Origin: Siphonodentalium dalli
Taxonomy: Eukaryota > Mollusca > Scaphopoda > Gadilida > Siphonodentaliidae
Length of the DNA stretch: 64,000 nucleotides
Assembly (NCBI GenBank): GCA_032622095.1
Contig: CP136066.1
Location: 99,841,319-99,905,318, forward strand
Reading direction: 5' to 3'
Shown here: in pieces, positions 2,361 to 35,384 of the stretch
Layout of the letters: each line of letters begins with the position of its first letter
Numbering within the stretch: position 1 is the stretch's first letter
The notes under the pieces: generated by a model
Told to the model about the DNA's origin: nothing
The model's database searches: none
Seen by the model: the letters and a program-made list of their open reading frames with translations, nothing else
Position numbers and translations under genes: made by a program

Positions 2361-4848
2361 ATTAAAATTAGAATATTGTAGATAATGCATTGAGAAAATC
2401 TCACTGCACACAAATGTTCATGAATTATTGTATACCGTAATTATAACTTTCGTCATTAAATTAGGGAAGCAACGTTTTTGGCCCCACACAATTTTACAAC
2501 TACAAATATCTAAACGTATACAGTCGTACTAGTAACTCTATCCATGAGTTGAGAAATCACTCTAATGACAAAACAAATAGTGATGTTTCCGGTAACAGAA
2601 GGAACAATAGTATCGTCGGGCGGGCGAAAATTAATTTAAATTTGTTTTAATTAAAAAAAAATATATTCATTCTGATTGTGTGCTCTTGCAGAGCAGATGA
2701 TATAAAAGGACACAATGAACACATTATTTTTTACTGTGGGTATTATTGGAAGGCATAAATACACGTACAGTAATCCTCGGCAGTATTTTCAAAAAAAAAA
2801 AAAACTATCGCGATATACCCAGCGGTTGAACTGGCCCGCATACACAAGGCCGCCGTCAAACCCAGAATTTCAGTCCAAAACATCGCAGATCGGCGACTAA
2901 TGAGCACAATTTTGCTATGATCAGAGATCGATAAACATGTTGTTTTGTTTCGGTTATTGCATTTGTTGATTGTTTTTCACGGTGTTGATCAAATAGGTAG
3001 GGGCGGAGGTCTCGACTACGGACGGGTGGGTTAGCGGAAACGTCACTATTCTTTTCAGGCCTGAAGGTACTAATTACGTCAATTTTAAACATACGAATCA
3101 GACTTTCCCTTTTGAAGAAATGAAGGAACACGATTAATAGACTATTACAGTTGAATTCACAATTATGTAAGGAAATTTAGATTGCCTGTTGAATATCTTA
3201 TTTGGTGTGTAGAAACAGCCATGTATCAATCACTGGGAATATTCACACACAACACCGACACTGTTCGTGTACAATATATCTGTGGAGTGTATACAATTGT
3301 AGAATAATAAGAGGGTTTATATAGGTCAACATGACCGCCTTCGGAGATTGCTTCTTTCAGTAGAAAGGTACGCACTACTTTCTACATCTACGTTGTCAGT
3401 GATACATCTTTAATACCGATTTGTTGTCATTTAGTCAATCGCTGATTCATGGTCGCAATAGAAATATCAACGTACAAGGTTTCATCAGGATTGTGTACGT
3501 GCTGAATTCAGTCTTACTCTTATAACTTTCATATCCCAGTAGCTGGGATTAGTGGGATTATAACTGATCGACATCACGATCTAACGTCATTAATAATTGG
3601 TTCACTCGATTCGTGGCTCCGGTAATCTTCATTTTCCACCTTGACACCGTGTTCCACTTCCACCACTCGGTCGAGCCAATATGTCAACTTTATTACAACT
3701 CGTTAAATTGGAAACACAATCGGAAGTATCAGCAAGAATGAGCATTATATTAGTATTTCCGAAGAAATTATCCATCAAACATTTTAGTTCTTCCGCCAAA
3801 AACAGCAAATTGTTGTGTTATGCGTAGATGTTAAATGTTAAACCTCAAATATTAAGGACGCAAAACAATCTGGAATTCGCGAGTACGAAAGTTTCACAAA
3901 GCAATGGTCATCGAACTTCTGTAAACTCGAACACTGGGAAAGAAAATTATACGCACACATTTCATGACTCAAAAATTTAACGAGTCGATTAATTTATCAT
4001 TCGCCATTGTTTTATACAAATAAATTGGACCCAATAAAATAGAGGAAATTGGCGTCTGTCAAAAAAGTATACACCCTAAATTATGCTGCTCTGGCCATCT
4101 GCATCAGCGTCATATTGCCACCGTTTCATGGCCATATAACTACCACTCTTTGTGATAGTACACCTGCCTATTATTGTGAGGTGTAACTACTCCTTCGGTG
4201 GTAATATAATCAAATTTGCCCCTAAAGCGTGCCACCAACAAAGGGGTAGTCGTCTGCCGCTCCAGGTTTTAGCGCGTGACCGGATGTATTTCATACATGT
4301 AATTACGAACGTAGCATTCAATGAATACCCTTCCAGTCAAGAAAACGACTGGACGTTCTTTACAACATTAGTTTTGTTGATCTACAAAACAGACAAATAT
4401 TTGTATCTACTATCGCAGGTTTACAATACCTTTTAACAAGGCGGTTAAACTTGATGTTATTACATGTAGCAGTTCAATATACTGAATCGGGATCGGGGAC
4501 CGTCGATCGTACATGTATATAGTCCCAGTGTAGCGTGGCCTAAATACGTAAACTGCATTGATAATGGGAGCCACATAATTGGACATTATTTTGGACATAT
4601 TCGATTGGACGGCTGATTAGCATGAAATTTGTTGCAAAATTAAAGTAAACATTGAAGCGAATGGAACGCGTGATTGCATGCTGCATTTGATTTACATTCA
4701 TTGTGGAGGCACACAGTAATGCTAAGGATGTCATTAGCACAGCCAGACGACACAGTCAAACAGAAACCCGCGCATATAGTCTGTGGGAAGTACATGTATA
4801 CACTGTCTTAGCGATATCGAACAGTTGACATGTATTGTTACACTGTCG
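2361..4848. other. Long unassigned intergenic stretch
   Basis: No gene, RNA or clear repeat was recognised in about 2.5 kb. A 14-base A tract lies at 2791-2804. Open frames are under 100 codons and show no known motif. Confidence 0.5.
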
Positions 4849-4990
4849 TATTGGAGAACAGTTCCCAGAAGTATTGAACTACTTAGTTCTATTCAACGTA
4901 CATATTCAGTGGTAATATTTATTGGAGAACAGTTCCCATAAGTATTAAACTACTTAGTTCTGCTCAACGTACACAGTCAGTGGTAATCAA
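4849..4990. repeat. Two-copy tandem duplication, 71-bp unit
   Basis: The unit starting TATTGGAGAACAGTTCCC at 4849 recurs at 4920 with a few substitutions (shared words include TTAGTTCT and CAACGTACA). The copies abut directly, so this is a local tandem duplication. Confidence 0.85.
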
Positions 4991-5654
4991 ATCTTGATGG
5001 GAGAAATTTTTAGAATCCTTTTTTATGATATAGAAAGTGACCGAATCGTTGCAGTAAAAATTTAAAATCTACCTCTGATTGGCAGTCATATTTAGTAACC
5101 TATTCATTTAGCAGATAATTCGTGACTAAAATGAGGCTACATGTTTTATAGTCTATTGGATGTGGGGAAATTAGTTTATAAGAAATGATAGTGTCAATGT
5201 CATGACTGTAGCTCAACTCGAGGAGCTTAATATTATGCCGAACAGTCAATAGATTGATAAATAATAAGGAAAGTAACAACATTTCAGTTTCAGTAAGTAC
5301 TGTGTAGATGCAATTGTTTTAATTTCAAACATTTCTGCAATAAATGCTGCTGACGGCCATGTTTTTTTTAAACGAAATTATGAAAATATTGATGACTCCA
5401 ATCTGAAGACCACACTAAGACCATGATTTATGAAGTTTCTCAGAGTAGCCTATATTTTTATTCTGAATAGCATGTTTGTACATACATACAGAATTTGACT
5501 TACCGCACATACATTACAAAATGTTAACACGTGTGTCCCAGCATATACGAGATGAGAAAGGCATTAATTTGAGGCGTATTTGACAGTGGAATATTCGATT
5601 TGCCGTGTATATGCATACTCGTGGAATTGTGGCAGTACAGTGCAATTCACGAAT
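4991..5654. other. Unassigned stretch with one AAGATGGC-family relic
   Basis: Around 5344-5400 a segment GACGGCCATGTTTTTTTTAA followed by ACGAAAT matches the core of the tandem repeats at 6073-6760. It is a single diverged relic. The rest is featureless. Confidence 0.45.
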
Positions 5655-6072
5655 TGTTTAAACTCGGAGATCATTTCGCTTCATCTGACAATTCATTCCA
5701 AACTGTAATAGCATGTGGCATAAATGACTTGTGTAAAGAGGTAGAAAATCAAAAGGGAGGTCTTAAGTTATCGTGACTAAATGGGTATCCACTTGAAGTT
5801 GTTGAATCTCTTGGGACATATTTATATAAATATTGTTTTCTCGTCATTTACATAAATCAACAAGTTTTGATTTATCTCACCTTTTCGATAGTTTCTTCCA
5901 TCCAATTGGTACCAATAAGCATCCCTATTACATCTCCTGTAGCCCAGTTATTATACATGCTGCTTCCAATTGCATATCTTCTAATAATTTTGATTCTTCA
6001 TCCGTGCAAATGTCACACACAAAGGAATCATATTCCAAGGCAGGGCGTATAAATGCAGTTTGTTGACGATAG
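5655..6072 (-). pseudogene. LINE reverse-transcriptase C-terminal fragment, frameshifted
   Basis: Read on the minus strand from 6072 downwards, one frame gives TAFIRPALEYDSFVCDICT, then a segment with EDMQLEAACIITG. This is the typical post-reverse-transcriptase 'thumb/C-domain' block of metazoan LINE ORF2 proteins (FIRPxLEYaxxvWdxCT...LexiQleAariiTG). After a stop, another frame continues with IGWKKLSKR and DKSKLVDLCK, and near 5660-5720 with FMPHAITVWNELSDE, the SFFPxxIxxWNxLP motif that closes these proteins. The motifs are in the right order but split between frames, so the copy is dead. Tandem AAGATGGC repeats begin immediately upstream at 6073. Confidence 0.8.
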
Positions 6073-6760
6073 GATGAGGGATGTGGCCTGTATTGTGTGC
6101 CGAACGATTTAGTCAAGAGTATAATCCATGATGGCCGCTTTGATGGCTCCCATCTAGAGATCAGCCCTGACGAACCATCTGATGAGGAATGTGGTCTGTA
6201 TGGTGTACCAGAGGACTTATTCATGCAAAGAGTAAATTCCACAATGGCTACTGGCGGCCATGTTCTTCAACGAAATTCGGAAAAAATAATTGATACCTCC
6301 CATCTAGAGGTCACTCCGAAAATCCGTATGCAGTTTGGTGATGATCGAACGGGGGATGACGTCTGTTGGGTGTGCCAAATTATTTAGTATTGCAAAGAGT
6401 ACAATTCAAGATGGTTGCAGGCGGCCATATTTTTCATTAAAATATCCTTCAAATTTGATAGTTCCCATCTAGAGGTATCCTAAACATGCTTGTAAATGTT
6501 CAAGACATTTCTCAAATAACTGCGGCCTACAGGATGTGCCAATGGATTCAAATTTGAAATCCAAGATGGCTGCTGGTGGCCATGTTTTACAGAGTATTTC
6601 GGGAAAGATCGATGGCTCCCATCTAGAGGCCACCAGAAAGATCCATACGAAGTTTGGTGACAATCGGATGCTATATGTGGCATGTAGGGTGTGCCAAAGG
6701 AAATTGTCGACGGACGCACGGACGGACACCAAGCCATGGTAATAGATCACACTTGATTTC
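6073..6760. repeat. Degenerate tandem array with AAGATGGCNGC cores (about 4 units)
   Basis: Each unit contains a start like ATCCAAGATGGCTGCTGGTG, a GGCCATGTT block, a CCCATCTAGAGGTCA block, AAGTTTGGTGA, GATCGGATG and a final GTGTGCCAAA. Spacing varies between about 120 and 190 bp. The last unit runs into GGACGCACGGACGGACACC and CCATGGTAATAG. The open frames across it are a by-product of the repeat. Related units occur at 26.3-27.6 kb and 40.3-41.0 kb. Confidence 0.75.
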
Positions 6761-6978
6761 GTCGGGTTGAGATAAAAAGCCTAGTATGGCAGGATAAGAC
6801 CTCAATTCTTCAATATAATGTTAACAACTGTTCTTTAGTACATAACACCTCACAAGAAGCATGAATATTTAAAGGATGAATAAGGTTTGTAAATGTTCAT
6901 AGATGTGACACTTTGGTTAAGTTTTTACCATGGCTGCCAATTATGTAACAAGCCATTTATGTGCCATTCAAATCGGTG

Positions 6979-7339
6979 TACACTGTTAAAAAAATTCCGT
7001 TCCCATACGGTACAATGATCCGAAAATTTGCTGCCGGCACAATGTACCGTGAGGGCATGTAACAATGTACCGTAAGGGTTACGGAACAATGTACCGTAAG
7101 TGTTACGGAACAATGTACCGTAAGGATTACGGAACAAGATACCGTAAGGATTACGGAACATTGTACCATTTCAGTACGGCCATATGTTCTGTACCACTAT
7201 AGAACAAAGTTCCATATTCATAAGGGACATAGAACCGTAACAGAACAGGTAAATGTTCCTCAACTTTACGGGACTATGTGCCGGCAGCAATTTTCCGGAT
7301 CTTTGTACCGTATGACAATGGTATTTTGTTAACAGTGCA
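6979..7339. mobile_element. TIR element with internal 24-bp minisatellite (copy 1)
   Basis: The ends are inverted repeats: CACTGTTAA plus a CATACGGTACAATGATCC block at the left matches, in reverse complement, TTAACAGTG and the GGATCTTTGTACCGTATG block at the right. The arms run about 60 bp. Inside, from about 7040 to 7160, there are several tandem units of AACAATGTACCGTAAGG plus NTTACGG (24 bp). No coding capacity. A shorter relative lies at 12938-13043. Class II non-autonomous element is the likely reading; the target duplication is unclear. Confidence 0.8.
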
Positions 7340-7442
7340 TTTCAGTTAAATTGTATTGCCTAGAATGTTTGTTTTTCCCATAATAAGCAGATATCTTCAT
7401 TATATATCATCCTTAAGTTGGTGCTGAATTCCATTCCATTAA

Positions 7443-7660
7443 TAACCCTTTCATGACTGGAGCTTCCTGATTTTTTTGCAAAAACCCAGTGCCAATGCAT
7501 TCTCATTTGCATAACAATATTTACCTTGACTTTGTAAGCCAGTGTATTCTCTTATATATGAGAGGCTCTCTATGCGAGACTTACATATATAAGATAATGC
7601 ACTGTCAAATGGTCTTTAATGCTGCACCAGCGTGGCTCCCGTCATGAAATGGCTAAGGTT
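7443..7660. mobile_element. Palindromic TIR element, ATATATGCGAG family (copy 1)
   Basis: The left end AACCCTTTCATGACTGGAGC is matched by the reverse complement of GCTCCCGTCATGAAATGGCT at the right. Between them lie inverted TGTATTCTCTTATATATG-type blocks. A related copy is at 53088-53323, and the core hairpin recurs twice at 29.2-29.45 kb. Confidence 0.75.
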
Positions 7661-8925
7661 GAATTCCGGATTTAAGCCGAGAGGTGGTGTTACATACATG
7701 TACCACCTCATGGTTTCAGCCACTGCAGATGTAATATAACTAAAATTAATAAATGAATTCAAGATATTTAATCATTTTTGGAAATGAGTTCGAAAATAAT
7801 TTGTGTTCCAAATTTAAGAAGTAGTGTCGCTGTCTGAAAATAAATTATTCTAACATATTCCAAAGTTCACTATTTACCAACAAGAAGAGTTCATAGCATC
7901 AAAGACCCCAACTATGGTAAAGTTGCATTCTTTGAAGCTATAAATGAAATGTGATTAATAGTTTGGCTTTTTGGAGCTGCATGTAGAAATCAATTTCATG
8001 TACACATTAAACACATATTATCGGTATATATTATAGGAAAAATTGAACGCTCAAAGAATTTGGTATCAAATGAAATTTTATATTCCTGTATAATAAAAGA
8101 TTGTACACTATACATGTACCTGTATGGCAATGCACATACCGGTAGCCATGACGTGATGCATGGTATACAATGCAAATGTTTTGAGTAGACATGTAATGTA
8201 CTTGAGTAGACATTACTTGTTAATACCATGTTCAATGTTTTAGTGCTATGCACACACATTCTTTGTATGAAGTAGAAGAAATAGCAATCGGTACATCCAC
8301 TGTCCCCAGAGTACTGTCTCTGTATATTTGATGACTATCATGACTTCATATAGCTGCACAGTCAACAGAGAACATGCTATTCTAATTTCTATAGTTGAAT
8401 ACACATGTATGGTTCATCGTCACTTCTATTCACAATAATCCAGAAAGAAATGATATTCCACAAGTGTCACACTTTTCATGTACCAGGATAGAGATACGGT
8501 TTGTCATCTACCTTGGAACAAACGTCATCTTGGCACGTTGGAGCTATGTCAGGCACATGCATATCATCATACATGCACATGTATATATGTAAGTCCAGTA
8601 ACACCACTTTCCTGCATTATTGTCCAATTGTTTATGCTATGATAAATCTCTTCATATGATATCAGATTTCCACCGCAGTCCTGAAAATATAGACATATAT
8701 CATAAATATACAATTACATATACCACATCACTATCTTTGTCTTTACACCAGTATCGATTCATGCATGGTGTCAGGGTTTGAACTTGCATCCCCACCTGCA
8801 AAGCACACAGCTAAAAATAATTATGCTGATACATGTATTATTTGTATATTCGGATATTGTTCCTAAACTCAAGGAAAGAATTATGGACAATTAAAATTGG
8901 AGGTCGTTCTCCAGATACGGTTACC
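7661..8925. other. Unassigned AT-rich stretch
   Basis: No gene or clear repeat family. TACATGTA-like words are frequent, and there is a short GAGTAGACAT duplication near 8187 and 8204. Confidence 0.5.
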
Positions 8926-20640: not shown

Positions 20641-20676
20641 TCGTTCTGAAACACACTATAAAGTGTATATAATATA

Positions 20677-20915
20677 ATAACGAACACGAGACATACATAA
20701 TTTATGAACTGTTAACAAAAGATATCAAATTCAATACATGACAAAGATGACTCAGTGGAGTTTATAAAGTGAACATAAAAACATTGAGGTAAGAATCTGT
20801 TTAAGGAATTCAACTTTATTTAATGATAATAAACACATAAATTAAAATAACAAACATGAGACATACATGATTTATAAACTGTTAACAACAGATATCAAAC
20901 TCAATACATGACAAA
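20677..20915 (+). repeat. 169-bp tandem repeat, interrupted by the giant foldback
   Basis: The unit AATAACGAACACGAGACATA starts at 20677 and again near 20846 (AATAACAAACATGAGACATA). The first copy reads through CATGACAAAGATGACTCAGT. The second stops after CATGACAAA, and the continuation GATGACTCAGTGAAGTTTAT appears 5.27 kb later at 26189. This gives an internal empty-site reference for the insertion. Confidence 0.9.
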
Positions 20916-22733
20916 TAGTCGGGGAGCCAATAAGGTCCACCTGCACCCCCCCCCCCGATGATTACAAATAACCTTATTTTTATTGTTCCCTATGGTATCC
21001 AGATAAAGAATCCGGAATTCTCCGAAAAATAAAGGTGGCCCTACTAGGTGCTAGAGCCATTTGAATCCAAGATGGCCGCCATTTCCTCTAATTCCGACCA
21101 GCTGTATTTAATCGTTGTAATAGATCGGTTGTTAGCAAAAGACACAGACAAAATATATGCCATTTGTTGGTATGATGTCCTTCTTCAAAATGACGGCACA
21201 AAATTTCGAAAAAAATTCAAAATGGCCGCCGAAAAATGACGTCATCTGCACGAAAATAGGAAATTTAATTAATATTTCACCATATCTTCCATTTTTCTTC
21301 ACATTAATCATTAGTAAATGTCAATGTTTTTGAGACAGTCATCAAGCGTGATATTATAGCGTCATTTTAAGACATTTGCCATTGACGAGGGTTCCGTAAT
21401 AGATACAGAAAGAGGATTTGAAAAAGAGGGGTAAGAGTTTCGATTTTTTGCAAGACGATTTTGATAGTCATTTTATCGACAAACCACACAGGCTGTTAAT
21501 AGAATGTCAACAACTATGTGCTTTATTTTATTGGACGGATGTTTTACTTCAATGGGAATGAAATTGGTGTAGAAAATTTCCAAAATGGCCGCCGAAAATA
21601 TGAAAAATGGTAAATATTGCCCCAGGGTGTCCTGCAATGGCTTACAAGTTGTGGTTAATATATAAAATTGGCTAATCTGTATTATATACATTGCATACTA
21701 ACATGTCTGATGCACCATGGATCATTGTTTCTATTGTCACCACTGACATCACCAGAAATATTGGATTTTTCTCTCACAAACTTGACAAAAATTTCGACAA
21801 AAATTCACTTTTCAGGGTTGGACAATTGTTTTAAGTAAAATGCAACTATCATTGGTATCAAAGGTATTTATTGTATTGGTCTATCTTAAATATGTCACAC
21901 TACGGTGTTTATAGACCAAATTGCTCAAGATGGCTTCCAAAATGGCAACCAAATTTATAAAAAGTTAATTTTTTACATATATCCCGAACATTATTCTCTG
22001 CGTTATCCGACAAGGTAGTAAATTGTGACTCACTTGGTTATTGTACGTGTTAGTTAATTAACTGACAACTACGTTCTATTATGTTTGTCCCAGTTCCGTA
22101 TGGGGCATGACAAATTCATTTTAAAGTTGCAGTATGGAATTTTGCGGAGAACCTCTTTTGTGTTTCTTGCCATATTATTGAAAGGAAATGGGCAGAACTT
22201 TGAAACGGAACTGAGATGAACCATAATATGTGGCTATTCTGGTCCATTATGATAAAACATATCAACTGGATACACGGTGGATGCCAAGATGGTAGCCAGG
22301 GAGTTACTATATGGTCATAGATGAGGTGAATAGGTATACAGGGAGTTATTGTATGGTCAACGGTGAGATGAGTACATGTATGTATACAATTAGTGACTGT
22401 ATGATCATAAATGTAATGAATAGCTATACAGGGAGTGACTAAATGGTCATGTGTCAGGTGTATGAGTATACCCGGTGTTCCTGCTTGGTGACGTGTAGGT
22501 CATGTGTAGGTTATACGGGTATACACATGTGTTGCTATATGGTCATGGGCGAGGGGTATGTGTATATAGCGAGCGGCTATATGGCCATGGATGATGTGCA
22601 TATGCATACATGGAGTGAATATACTGACATGGCTGGGGAGTATTAGTATATCTTGAGTGGCTATTCTGCTATGGTGTGACAAATAGGGATACGGGGAGTG
22701 ACATGGCCAAGGGTGAGGTGAATATATATACAA
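20916..22733 (+). repeat. Left inverted arm of the giant foldback
   Basis: The outer part is non-repetitive and contains several ATGGCCGCC words (near 21070, 21222 and 21585). From about 22290 the arm passes into minisatellite units of the form TATACAGGGAGTGACTATAT, GGTCATGGGTGAGGTGAATA. The match with the right arm is lost after GAATATATATAC at 22733. Confidence 0.9.
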
Positions 22734-24368
22734 TGATTGACCATGATCATGTACGAATGTTTTGAATAGGTACACACGGTGTGACTATATGGCCATAGGT
22801 CAGATGAAGGAGTATACCAGGTGCCATGGGTGAGGGTATGTGTATGAAGCGAGTGGCTATATGACCATTGGTGAGGTGGATATGTATACCCGGGGTGACT
22901 CTATGGTCATTGTTGTGGTGTTGATGTATATATTGAATGTCTATTTGACCATGTGTGTGTGGAGAATAGGTATACATGGGATGACCGTATGGCCAATAGT
23001 GAGGTGAATGGGTATACAAGGAGTGACTCTATGGTTATGGGTCATGTTTAGGATTATACCCGGTGTGACTGCATTGTGACTCATGGCTGTATGGCCATCC
23101 ATGGTCATGGGTCAGGTGTACGTTTATACAGTTGGTCACTATATTGTGATGTCTGTAGTGTTTATGTATATATGGAATGACTGTGTGGTAATGGGTGGCT
23201 ATCGCTTTTCACGTTTAAAGTTCCCCCATGTACACAAACACTATCATGGTGGAGAACTCTTTGATATGACCTCTCTATTGATTAACATATCCTTGCATTA
23301 TTGTGGAAAGCGATAGCCACCCAAATTACACATGTACAACCCACCATGACCTCATATGTACATAAACACCACACAAATGACAATATAGTCACCCACTCTA
23401 TACACATACACCTGACCATACAGCCATATTTGGTTATACTGGTACATGCCACAAATGACGATACAGCCATGAGTCACCTTGCATGAACACCAGGTATACT
23501 CCTACACCTGACCATATAGTCACTATGTGTATACATATTCACCACATTCACGATCATAAAGTCACTCATTGTATACCTATGCACCTCACCGTGGACCATA
23601 CAGCCACTACATGTATATCTATTCGCCATACCCATGACCATAGAGTCAATCCAGATATACATATACACCTCATCAATGGTGAGCCCTTCCAAATATACCA
23701 ATACCCGCACACACGACCACTCATAAGTTTAATACTTGCATATACACCTCGCACATGACAATTCAGCAACTCAATGTATACTTATACACGCCATCCATGA
23801 TCATTCATCTACACCCTATACACCACCGATGATAATACATCCACAACATATATCAATATACGACCCACCCGTTACCAAAAGGGCACTCCCTATATAGCCA
23901 CACGTATGCATATAACTTCAATCTTGACCGTACAGGCATACCAGGTGCACCTATACACATTACCCATAACCATAAAATCACTCCCTATTTATCTACGCAC
24001 TCCATCCATGATCATACAGACAGCACAAATATACATATACACCCACATGTCACAATACAGCCACACACGGTACACATATACATCCCACCACGACATTACA
24101 GTCACTCCATATATACATAAACAACTCACATATGACCATGTAGCTACTCTCGTTATATCTATACACCACAGCAATGCCCATACGGTCACAACGGCCACAC
24201 ACAACAATACACCGTACAGTCACTACATGTATACCGATTCACTTCACACATGCCCATACAGCCACTCCTTATATTCCTATGCATCTCACCATGGACACCC
24301 CACTCATAACCATATAGTCACTCCTTGTATACATATTCACACCATTCATGCCCATACAGTAACTCCCT
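22734..24368. repeat. Strand-switching minisatellite core of the foldback
   Basis: Units of about 42-44 bp run in one orientation up to about 23192. They continue in the opposite orientation from about 23323, so the core itself is a degenerate palindrome. At the switch, GGGTGGCTATCGCTTTTCAC (23193-23212) is matched inverted by GTGGAAAGCGATAGCCACCC (23303-23322), leaving a unique 90-bp loop. The units differ from one another far more than the outer arms differ, and the right half is longer than the left. Confidence 0.85.
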
Positions 24369-26185
24369 GTATATATATTCACCTCACCCTTGGCCATGTC
24401 ACTCCCCGTATCCTTATTGTCACACCATAGCAGAATAGCCACTCAAGATATACTAATACTCCCCAGCCATGTCAGTATATTCACTCCATGTATGCATATG
24501 CACATCATCCATGCCCATATAGCCGCTCGCTATATACACATACCCCTCGCCCATGACCATATAGCAACACATGTGTATACCCGTATAACCTACACATGAC
24601 CATACCGCCACATCACCAAGCAGGAACACCGGGTATACTCATACACCTGACACATGACCATTTAGTCACTCCCTGTATAGCTATTCATTACATTTATGAT
24701 CATACAGTCACTAATTGTATACATACATGTACTCATCTCACCGTTGACCATACAATAACTCCCTGTATACCTATTCACCTCACCTAAGATAATATAGTAA
24801 GTCCCTGGCTACCATCTTGGGTTTCCACCCTGTATCCAGTTGATATGTTTTATCATAATGGACCAGAATAGCCACATATTATGGTTCATCTCAGTTCCGT
24901 TTCAAAGTTCTGCCCATTTCCTTTCAATAATATGGCAAGAAACACAAAAGAGGTTCTCCGCAAAATTCCATACTGCAACTTTAAAATGAATTTGTCATGC
25001 CCCATACGGAACTGGGACAAACATAATAGAACGTAGTTGTCAGTTAATTAACTAACACGTACAATAACCAAGTGAGTCACAATTTACTACCTTGTCGGAT
25101 AACGCAGAGAATAATGTTCGGGATATATGTAAAAAATTAACTTTTTACAAATTTGGTTGCCATTTTGGAAGCCATCTTGAGCAATTTGGTCTATAAACAC
25201 CGTAGTGTGACACATTTAAGATAGACCAATACAATAAATACCTTTGATACCAATGATAGTTGCATTTTACTTAAAACAATTGTCCAACCCTGAAAAGTGA
25301 ATTTTTGTCGAAATTTATGTCAAGTTTGTGAGAGAAAAATCCAATAGTTCTGGTGATGTCAGTGGTGACAATAGAAACAATGATCCATGGTGCATCAGAC
25401 ATGTTAGTATGCAATGTATATAATACAGATTAGCCAATTTTATATATTAACCACAACTTGTAAGCCATTGCAGGACACCCTGGGGCAATATTTACCATTT
25501 TTCATATTTTCGGCGGCCATTTTGGAAATTTTCTACACCAATTTCATTCCCATTGAAGTAAAACATCCGTCCAATAAGATAAAGCACATAGTTGTTGACA
25601 TTCTATTAACAACCTGTGTGGTTTGTCGATAAAATGACTATCAAAATCGTCTTGCAAAAAATCGAAAATTTTACCCCTCTTTTTCAAATCCTCTTTCTGT
25701 ATCTATTACGAAACCCTCGTCAATGGCAAATGTCTTAAAATGACGCTATAATATCACGCTTGATGACTGTCTCAAAAACATTGCCATTTACTAATGATTA
25801 ATGTGAAGAAAAATGGAAGATATGGTGAAATATTAATTAAATTTCCTATTTTCGTGCAGATGACGTCATTTTTCGGCGGCCATTTTTAATTTTTTTCGAA
25901 TTTTTTTGCCGTCATTTTGAAGAAGGACATCATACCAACAAATGGCATATATTTTGTCTGTGTCTTTTGCTAACAACCGATCTATTACAACGATTAAATA
26001 CAGCTGGTCGGAATTAGAGGAAATGGCGGCCATCTTGGATTCAAATGGCTCTAGCACCTAGTAGGGCCACCTTTATTTTTCGGAGAATTCCGGATTCTTT
26101 ATCTGGATACCATAGGGAACAATAAAAATAAGGTTATTTGTAATCATCGGGGGGGTGCAGGTGGACCTTATTGGCTCCCCGACTA
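24369..26185 (-). repeat. Right inverted arm of the giant foldback
   Basis: Reverse complement of the left arm. It repeats the minisatellite border, the CAACTGGATACA block, the ATGGCGGCC words and the C/G homopolymer, and ends in CCCCGACTA followed by the AAA duplication. Confidence 0.9.
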
Positions 26186-26188
26186 AAA

Positions 26189-26260
26189 GATGACTCAGTG
26201 AAGTTTATAAAGTGAACATAAAAATATTAAGGTAAAAATCTTTTTAAGCATTACTAAACC
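26189..26260 (+). repeat. Continuation of the interrupted 169-bp tandem unit
   Basis: GATGACTCAGTGAAGTTTAT and the following AAGTGAACATAAAAATATTA match 20746 onward in the uninterrupted copy. Confidence 0.88.
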
Positions 26261-33588: not shown

Positions 33589-34366
33589 TGTTTTTATCAT
33601 GACCGGTACAGGAGCAAAAAATGCTATGAAATCGAAATAAATCCACTTAAATTAAGACGATTCTGTCACACCATTCACAATCATCCCGTTGTGTTCCCCA
33701 CACTTGACCGTACATCGACGTACACTATCACAGCTGATCAGGCGTATTGATACATTGAATTAGGTCAACACTCAATTGTAGGAATATGGCATCAGTTTAG
33801 CCAATTCACAATAAACTGTAATGAAACCGCCATAAATAAACAACATGAATATATTTGGGAATACGAATTTAATGAATATAAATATAACACATTGCGGGAA
33901 CTTTTTTTTCTCCGCCGGACAGTCAACAGGAAACCACGAAAGTCATTTTGAAATCCACCGTTTGTTGTTCGAGTTTGTTACGTCTATTTCTTGAAATATA
34001 TGTTCAATTTTGCTGATCTGGATGTGATTTCCACGGAATTAACTGTTCGTTTTTATCGCATTAGTGAGTATAATATTCATTTGAATCGAAAGTATCAAAT
34101 TGTTTTCATCGCGAAGCGCTACGTTTTAAAAATAGTCATTTTGATCGAGGTCACGGAAGGTTAATAATGAAAGGTCAACTCGGATGTAGTTCTACTATGG
34201 GTATAAACTTTAACCATTGAAATGCCATTCAAACATGTTACCCACAGTAGAAACGTGTTACCCACGGTCGGACTCCTGTTCACACATAGCAGGGTGTACA
34301 GCACAAATTTATTATATAGCATGTTTGTACACAGTACAATAGGGAGTCATGGTATAAATATATATA
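33589..34366. other. Unassigned stretch
   Basis: No repeat or gene recognised; a short direct repeat GTTACCCACRGT occurs near 34238 and 34257. Confidence 0.5.
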
Positions 34367-34936
34367 TCTCATATATATTTTTAAGACCTCTGTTTGTCTG
34401 TCTGTATGTCTGTCATTTATACAAATCTACGATTCTCGACCGATCGGGACGAAACTTGGTACGTGTGTGTAGTTTGACCAGGCGGTCGTCGTTGTCGTAT
34501 TGGCTTCGCGCATGCGCAGACGAGATATCGGACACGGGTGGAGCTATCGACTTGAAATTTGCTATGTGAATGTATCTTGCCCCGGATACGAATTTTATCG
34601 GGTCGCCGAGCCCGTGCGACGCCAGCTTCGCGCATGCGCAGACGAGATCTCGGAAACGGGTGGAGCTATCGACTTGAAATTTGGTATGTGAACGTATCTT
34701 GCCCCGGATACGAATTTTATCGGGTCGCCGAGCCCGTGCGACGCCAGCTTCGCGAATGCGCAGACCAGATCTCGGAAACGGGCAGAGCTATCGACTTGAA
34801 ATTTGGTTTTTGAATAGCCCGGACAACGTCGGGCTCATCGGCTTTTGAATAGCCCGGACAACGTCGGGCTGGGTAGAGCTATCGACTTGAAATTTGGTTT
34901 TTTAATAGCCCGGACAACGTCGGGCTCATCGGCTAG
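34367..34936 (+). mobile_element. Second Helitron-like family with tripled 3' hairpin
   Basis: Starts TCTCATATATATTTTTAAGA after a TA run and ends CATCGGCTAG before (TA)n. Inside, a 122-bp unit (CTTCGCGCATGCGCAGACGA onwards) begins at 34504, 34626 and 34748. The terminal hairpin block TAGCCCGGACAACGTCGGGC is present three times, near 34816, 34853 and 34908, so the 3' end has been duplicated as well. No coding capacity. Confidence 0.8.
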
Positions 34937-35384
34937 TATATATATATATATATACATCGCAAAAAAAAAAAAAAAATAACAACGATTGGGATTGATGTAA
35001 ACATATTTTATTCCAATCCTATACATGTAACATATATGAACATTTAACAACAGTTTTGACAATATAGTATTGCTAGGTGAATCGGAAATGCGTCTAACAA
35101 CAAGCCCATGGCTTTGATTAAGTTTGCTCCCCATTAAGTTTGCTCCTTTTGGGATTATTTAATATGGAAATGAATCGATAATCGTGTGCAGTAAATTTTT
35201 TGCTTTTCACGATCTAACAGACTAAGCACAACGCGTAGTATAATATTAATTGTGTTCAATCGGCCAGTTGAGGATATCCGAGGCTTGATAAGTGCGGTGG
35301 CTATGTGATAGAACAAAACTAATTGACTGGCTGTCTATCTTTAAACGAAGTTTTTTGGTACAAACCGAGCAAAACGTATATCCT
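34937..35384. other. Simple repeats and unassigned DNA
   Basis: The TA run continues to about 34954 and is followed by a 16-base A tract at 34961-34976. The rest is featureless. Confidence 0.55.

Follow-up and report, generated by a model that had tools for sequence, protein, structure and literature searches.

The window analysed here, a stretch of 64,000 nucleotides of the genome of the scaphopod mollusc Siphonodentalium dalli (C6:99841319-99905318), contains a large foldback element of 5,270 bp at positions 20916-26185. We consider it very probable that this element belongs to a family of non-autonomous foldback DNA transposons, of which the subfamily present in the window has recently spread, and whose transposase is supplied in trans by a protein-coding relative of the type found on C1. 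The bounds of the element can be placed to the base, with TAGTCGGGGAGCC at 20916 and the reverse complement of TAGTCGGGGAGCC running up to 26185. In a self-alignment, element positions 1-1877 match positions 3395-5270 in inverted orientation with 97.2% identity over 1,885 columns, which defines a left arm of 1,877 bp (20916-22792, plus strand) and a right arm of 1,876 bp (24310-26185, minus strand). The core is made of degenerate units of 42 bp, spaced 42 bp apart (48 units were gathered with an iterated matrix), which point inwards from both ends and lie between the arms and partly within them. GC (guanine-cytosine) skew, unit spacing and the matrix together delimit a left half, G-rich on the plus strand, that starts within the left arm (about 22271-23197), and a right half with the units on the other strand that extends into the right arm (about 23326-24812). 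The skew is +0.37 in the interval 22-23 kb, -0.27 in 23-24 kb and -0.47 in 24-25 kb, and the turning point (23192-23323), read directly from the sequence, is a perfect 17-bp inverted repeat (23192-23208 / 23307-23323) around 98 bp. An initial annotation of this stretch had proposed that the core reverses strand midway, and both the opposite directions of the units and the change of sign of the skew bear this out. The idea that the 42-bp unit was derived from the terminus of the element was tried and rejected, since 283 of 300 shuffled termini equalled or exceeded the score of the real one with the unit matrix. The sole stop-to-stop frame of at least 170 amino acids within the element, one of 209, passes through the 42-bp array, and there is no transposase inside.

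The trinucleotide AAA abuts both ends of the element (20913-20915 and 26186-26188), and a neighbouring copy of the target repeat (20667-20805, plus strand) shows the empty site, with its own AAA at 20743-20745. The left flank (20837-20915) aligns with 20667-20745 at 88.6% and the right flank (26186-26248) with 20743-20805 at 92.1%; the two alignments overlap precisely in AAA, and when the flanks are joined in silico the comparison with the neighbouring copy is free of gaps at the insertion site. The initial annotation's description of a giant foldback without transposase, flanked by a 3-bp AAA duplication, is therefore upheld by the base-exact ends, the 97.2% identity of the arms, the empty-site alignment and the lack of any transposase frame. 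It had also described the target as an interrupted 169-bp tandem repeat with an empty-site neighbour; the empty-site copy is indeed there, but the register is 170 bp and the tandem duplication has two copies only.

The element is one of many. In the genome as scanned (2.23 Gb, nine contigs), the exact 30-bp terminus occurs 633 times (296 forward, 337 reverse), against 0 and 0 for the reversed pattern used as a control, a family size that excludes chance. The stretches fetched around family termini are designated by L-numbers. Twenty were fetched around exact 30-bp termini, 11 of them two-ended and nine not, a second inverted terminus not being found within the stretch read in L010, L011, L012, L013, L019, L021, L023, L024 and L028. 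With the window, this makes 12 two-ended copies, ten of which have the same 3-bp sequence on both sides (GTT, AAA, TTG, ATA, TTA, TAT, AAT, AAA, TTT and AAA); the exceptions are L015, with AGA and ATA, and L026, one end of which is short of its final three bases. With ACC/ACC and TAT/TAT in two long copies, matching flanks are present in 12 of the 14 whole two-ended foldbacks, in agreement with the AAA on either side of the window element. A separate pattern search, which omitted duplications starting with G or ending in C, gave identical flanks in 29 of the 32 pairs with both sides shown (23 of these 29 consist of A and T only), to be compared with 3.2 on average, and never more than 10, in 2,000 shuffles of the partners. 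Among the first 100 of the 633 places there are 31 opposite terminus pairs within 30 kb, spanning 362-1,876 bp (four pairs), 4.6-5.9 kb (25 pairs, in size groups near 4.9, 5.25 and 5.65 kb) and 9.6 and 17.9 kb (one each), and 38 of these 100 termini have no partner. The family thus has the layout of a foldback, namely very long inverted arms with internal tandem repeats, dispersed copies with target-site duplications and no internal transposase.

These counts also bear on the more trivial explanation that the palindrome is a one-off inverted duplication or an assembly artefact. Assembly can create long palindromes, and there is one place on C8 (C8:76531975-76635469) where inverted copies with inverted flanks lie about 103 kb apart, which points to a large inverted duplication or to an assembly matter. 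A 103-kb element between the two CCC-type termini of that place had been considered, and was rejected when its flanks turned out to be inverted copies of each other. For the element in the window, we regard an artefact as extremely improbable: other contigs carry full-length copies at 98-99% that differ in their flanks and have 3-bp duplications of their own, the termini number in the hundreds, and a copy of the empty site is present. The terminus is thus far from single-copy, the outcome that the initial annotation had named as fatal to its own proposal, and the search that it had recommended for other copies with 3-bp duplications has succeeded.

The initial annotation had attributed the near-identity of the arms either to recent mobility or to strong arm-to-arm conversion. 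For the window subfamily the balance tips towards mobility, and conversion since insertion is not seen in the window copy. L009, L014 and L017 match the window element over its full length at 98.2-99.1%; other copies, including those of 5.6 kb in which one arm is partly duplicated, match it piecewise at about 91-96%. Within the subfamily the left arms (five copies) diverge by 0.4-0.7% and the right arms (four copies) by 0.9-1.2%, with more for L031. Over arm positions 1-1650, the two arms of the window copy are 1.46% apart, and they differ by 0.73-1.40% from the opposite arms of L009, L017 and L014. As its own arms are no closer to each other than to opposite arms elsewhere, arm-to-arm conversion after insertion is not observed in this copy, and recent spread, rather than conversion, is the preferred reading for the subfamily. 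The own-arm difference of L009, L014 and L017 (0.48-0.85%) falls within the range of their differences to other copies (0.43-1.40%), towards its low end. We had considered fixed differences between left and right arms along their full length, and this was rejected: the 29 side-specific columns among four copies are confined to the stretch from position 1766 onwards, in which the palindrome breaks down, and before 1766 the four left arms as a set cannot be told from the four right arms at any column. This indicates that the arms of the founder were already near-identical before position 1766, which may reflect either a recent origin or an earlier homogenisation (including conversion before the last burst), as both fit.

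The initial annotation also called for a search for a long relative encoding a transposase, and this has yielded a good candidate, an element of 7,657 bp at C1:81039288-81046944. It came to light as an opposite-terminus pair among the first 100 of the 916 places of a shorter terminus pattern (control 0), and was joined from three contiguous stretches. Its inverted ends are 710 bp long and 98.9% alike, and its middle, without the foldback core, contains open reading frames (ORFs) of 729, 321 and 509 amino acids in three frames. The outer 690 bp are in common with the window element, at 95.2-96.5% with each arm: the outer part of the left arm (20916-21599, plus strand) is 95.9% identical to the left end of the C1 element and 96.5% to its right end, and that of the right arm (25506-26185, minus strand) 95.2% and 96.1%. 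Beyond this the two share only further repeats of the end sequence just inside. A genome search with the 509-residue piece, in which 84 of 3,573 candidates were scored, gave 89 matches. Besides the first copy, five places are 97-98% alike across 394-505 residues; two of these contain one or two stops, and one lies within an open frame of 1,425 amino acids. There are also shorter close pieces and many matches at 30-62%. At one of the five (C1:166599176) the distance to a family terminus, at 166605552, is 4,863 bp, compared with 4,847 bp in the first copy; another, C4:65660152, terminates in GGCTCCCCGACTA where this was expected, and resembles the first copy at 98.6% over the final 210 bp. Two places on C1 at 93-94% (43.03 and 155.83 Mb) have no family terminus nearby among those listed. 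The coding relative is thus real, and it is probably the transposase-encoding one that the initial annotation asked for.

Several longer copies had been examined as possible autonomous members and were rejected. L031 is a foldback with a nested insertion of 4.4 kb (L031:3567-7936), which is bounded by separate ends, CAGTCCTTCCCA, with TATAT as flanks; it contains an ORF of 767 amino acids that matched no Pfam family, and was labelled hAT by eye only. L029 and L030 together contain a 13.4-kb tandem array inserted into one foldback arm, the aligned arm pieces overlapping by three bases at the array junction. L037-L039, of which only the middles were considered, start in the foldback core and then depart from it, L038 rejoining the arm near the end.

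We think it likely that the protein of the coding relative is the transposase and mobilises the foldback copies, and we lean slightly towards placing it in the AcademX branch of the Academ superfamily. Duplications of 3 or 4 bp are described for AcademX in a passage of PMC10045372, which links them to the nuclease that these elements encode, and the likeness to our family, drawn from description only, lies in the 3-bp duplication, the long element, the large protein and an acidic pattern that looks nuclease-like by eye. The foldback copies agree with this duplication length, the C1 coding copy not exactly so. Bivalves are reported as rich in Academ elements in a passage of PMC10294476. In the 509-residue piece and three relatives, E-E-x-D, D-x-D, T-x-x-D and G-K are invariant. 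Academ proteins combine an XPG-type nuclease with a cysteine-rich finger. The acidic pattern was likened to the XPG core by eye only, and profile and structure-library searches gave no support.

It must be said that a number of results weigh against this interpretation. The C1 coding element is flanked by CAT and CAG, without exact duplication; for the copy at C1:166599176 the listed termini include no opposite one around the predicted far end, and the C4:65660152 copy does not have its left end at the expected place. The outer ends of the foldback copies differ by 2.4-5.0% from those of the coding copy, so that a different copy may have served as the actual helper in the last burst (the 16.8% of L020 has a simpler cause, its first 400 bp passing beyond the turn of this short copy). 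The protein pieces were searched separately against Pfam: none has a transposase domain at the curated cut-off, the 321-residue middle piece matches only DUF6589, with E 1.1e-4 and 21.5 bits where the cut-off is 27, and the 729- and 509-residue pieces give nothing relevant, so that Pfam does not support a nuclease in the latter either. The 509-residue piece found two unrelated weak matches in NCBIfam and, in the PDB, nothing in one search and four unrelated chains in another. Finally, the alignment of the four sequences was compared by hhalign with human FEN1, and with 80 archaeal FEN1 fragments plus human; both runs paired short unrelated stretches with the acidic residues unaligned, the real scores being reached by 7 of 200 and 2 of 150 shuffles, that is, lying above most. 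XPG_I has 12 matches in this genome, none at the coding places of the relatives of the 509-residue piece. As a separate observation, DUF6589 gave 90 matches genome-wide from 102 scored candidates (best E 7e-39) and none in 14 control genomes; it is a large protein family in this genome, perhaps transposon-borne.

A different helper has to be considered, from another superfamily with short duplications (Zator, Chapaev/EnSpm or Harbinger), in which case the C1 coding element would merely have acquired these ends. Duplications of 3 bp are indeed described for several superfamilies (3 bp for Zator, 3-4 bp for Chapaev, in the accounts excerpted), and the coding protein matches no transposase profile at cut-off. 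However, Chapaev is described there with ends CAC..GTG, and Chapaev3 with TWA targets, whereas the ends here are TAG..CTA, unlike the CAC..GTG of Chapaev / EnSpm, and the targets are varied; moreover, three coding copies have the family ends at one or both sides (one by listed position only). The Zator-related PF07592 (ISAzo13-like transposase) has no match, and as the control genomes were likewise silent this is no evidence either way. On balance we find a helper of this kind rather unlikely.

A Mutator- or P-type foldback, as in the Drosophila and nematode examples, appears highly improbable to us. FB and Tm1 are foldbacks of this type, and the layout of long, repetitive, non-coding inverted arms is the same. 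The Drosophila FB and sea-urchin TU elements share with our family the general foldback shape only, having duplications longer than 3 bp and ends unrelated to those found here. The family has duplications of 3 bp, not the 7-10 bp of Mutator- and P-type foldbacks, and Pfam shows neither a Mutator nor a P domain in the coding relative; the 3-bp duplications, the variable targets and the TAG..CTA ends thus disfavour both this type and Chapaev. Among the closest known systems is Galileo, a foldback-like member of the P superfamily in Drosophila, which as characterised in parts of PMC3573991 also has long, variable, internally repetitive inverted ends, many copies made mostly of ends and a coding form with common ends, but 7-bp duplications and a P-type transposase, against 3 bp and a different protein here. 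Tetris / DAIBAM of the Drosophila virilis group is likewise a non-autonomous foldback with tandem repeats inside its arms; the portion of PMC4079207 dealing with it gives duplications of 8-10 bp and three complete copies, with no coding relative found, compared with 3 bp, a coding relative and hundreds of termini here. The resemblance to fly Foldback and sea urchin TU elements noted in the initial annotation therefore holds for the layout, but the duplications of 3 bp separate our family from Tetris and Galileo.

In the scenario that we favour, transposase would be supplied in trans, the likely source being the C1:81039288-81046944 element and its close kin, with their long multi-domain protein. 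This protein would bind the outer few hundred bases of both foldback and coding elements, cut at the TAG/CTA ends and insert with a 3-bp stagger at variable, mostly A/T sites. The foldback form would be a derivative that lost the gene and kept the ends (the outer 0.68 kb, as putative transposase recognition sequence), the remainder being palindromic filler with inverted 42-bp arrays in its inner part. Foldback and coding sequences diverge at about position 684, inside a motif, AAAATGGCCGCCGAAAA, that is present more than once in the arm, and subfamilies show a shift from arm position 563 back to 186. From these two observations, recombination between repeats seems to alter the length of the arms, a process also discussed for Galileo in a section of PMC3573991.

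The family has a sister. At 38 places (control 2) TAGTCGGGGAGCC is followed by a base other than A, which is C in 32 of them, and the terminus of this sister foldback family is TAGTCGGGGAGCCC (for example at L013:8168). This sister family is older and more diverged: L033-L035, the relatives of the L013 place, are palindromes whose arms measure about 0.5-1.1 kb and match at 75-76%, and no ORF longer than 148 amino acids was found in the two copies scanned (L034 and L035). A 122-bp tandem repeat of the window (34362-34946) recurs at 90% beside the sister-family terminus in L013, and so belongs to a dispersed repeat family. Also in the window, one 23-bp doublet is found three times (31531, 32333 and 33142) with a spacing of about 0.8 kb, which suggests a tandem triplication. 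Some of the copies without a second inverted terminus in the stretch read have features of their own. L012, one-ended, contains a nested long interspersed nuclear element (3715-8506) with GDSL-lipase, endonuclease and reverse-transcriptase ORFs. In L019, same-direction termini at 401 and 6322 with identical flanks, 5.9 kb apart, indicate a tandem duplication including the foldback end. In L023, ORFs adjoining the truncated copy (reverse strand 3-1661, forward 5071-5622) recall Polinton-type elements in that, by eye only, they look like an OTU-like protease and the start of a protein-primed DNA polymerase B; the sole Pfam match is a weak one to zf-met.

We would suggest, tentatively and with more doubt than conviction, that this is the first foldback family tied by an end-sharing coding relative to AcademX or to an undescribed superfamily, with the 42-bp filler as a kept module. 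In the open-licence PMC literature we found no paper combining "Academ" and "foldback", and none combining "foldback", "terminal inverted repeats" and "3-bp target site duplication", which is weak evidence of novelty. If the suggestion is true, the foldback form would have arisen again in a group with 3-bp duplications, and the palindromic filler, kept through several bursts (the three size groups), would be, for instance, a hairpin-forming or transposase-loading structure and not idle padding. With a helper candidate that has common ends in the same genome, both the mover of a giant palindrome and the end length that it requires become directly testable.

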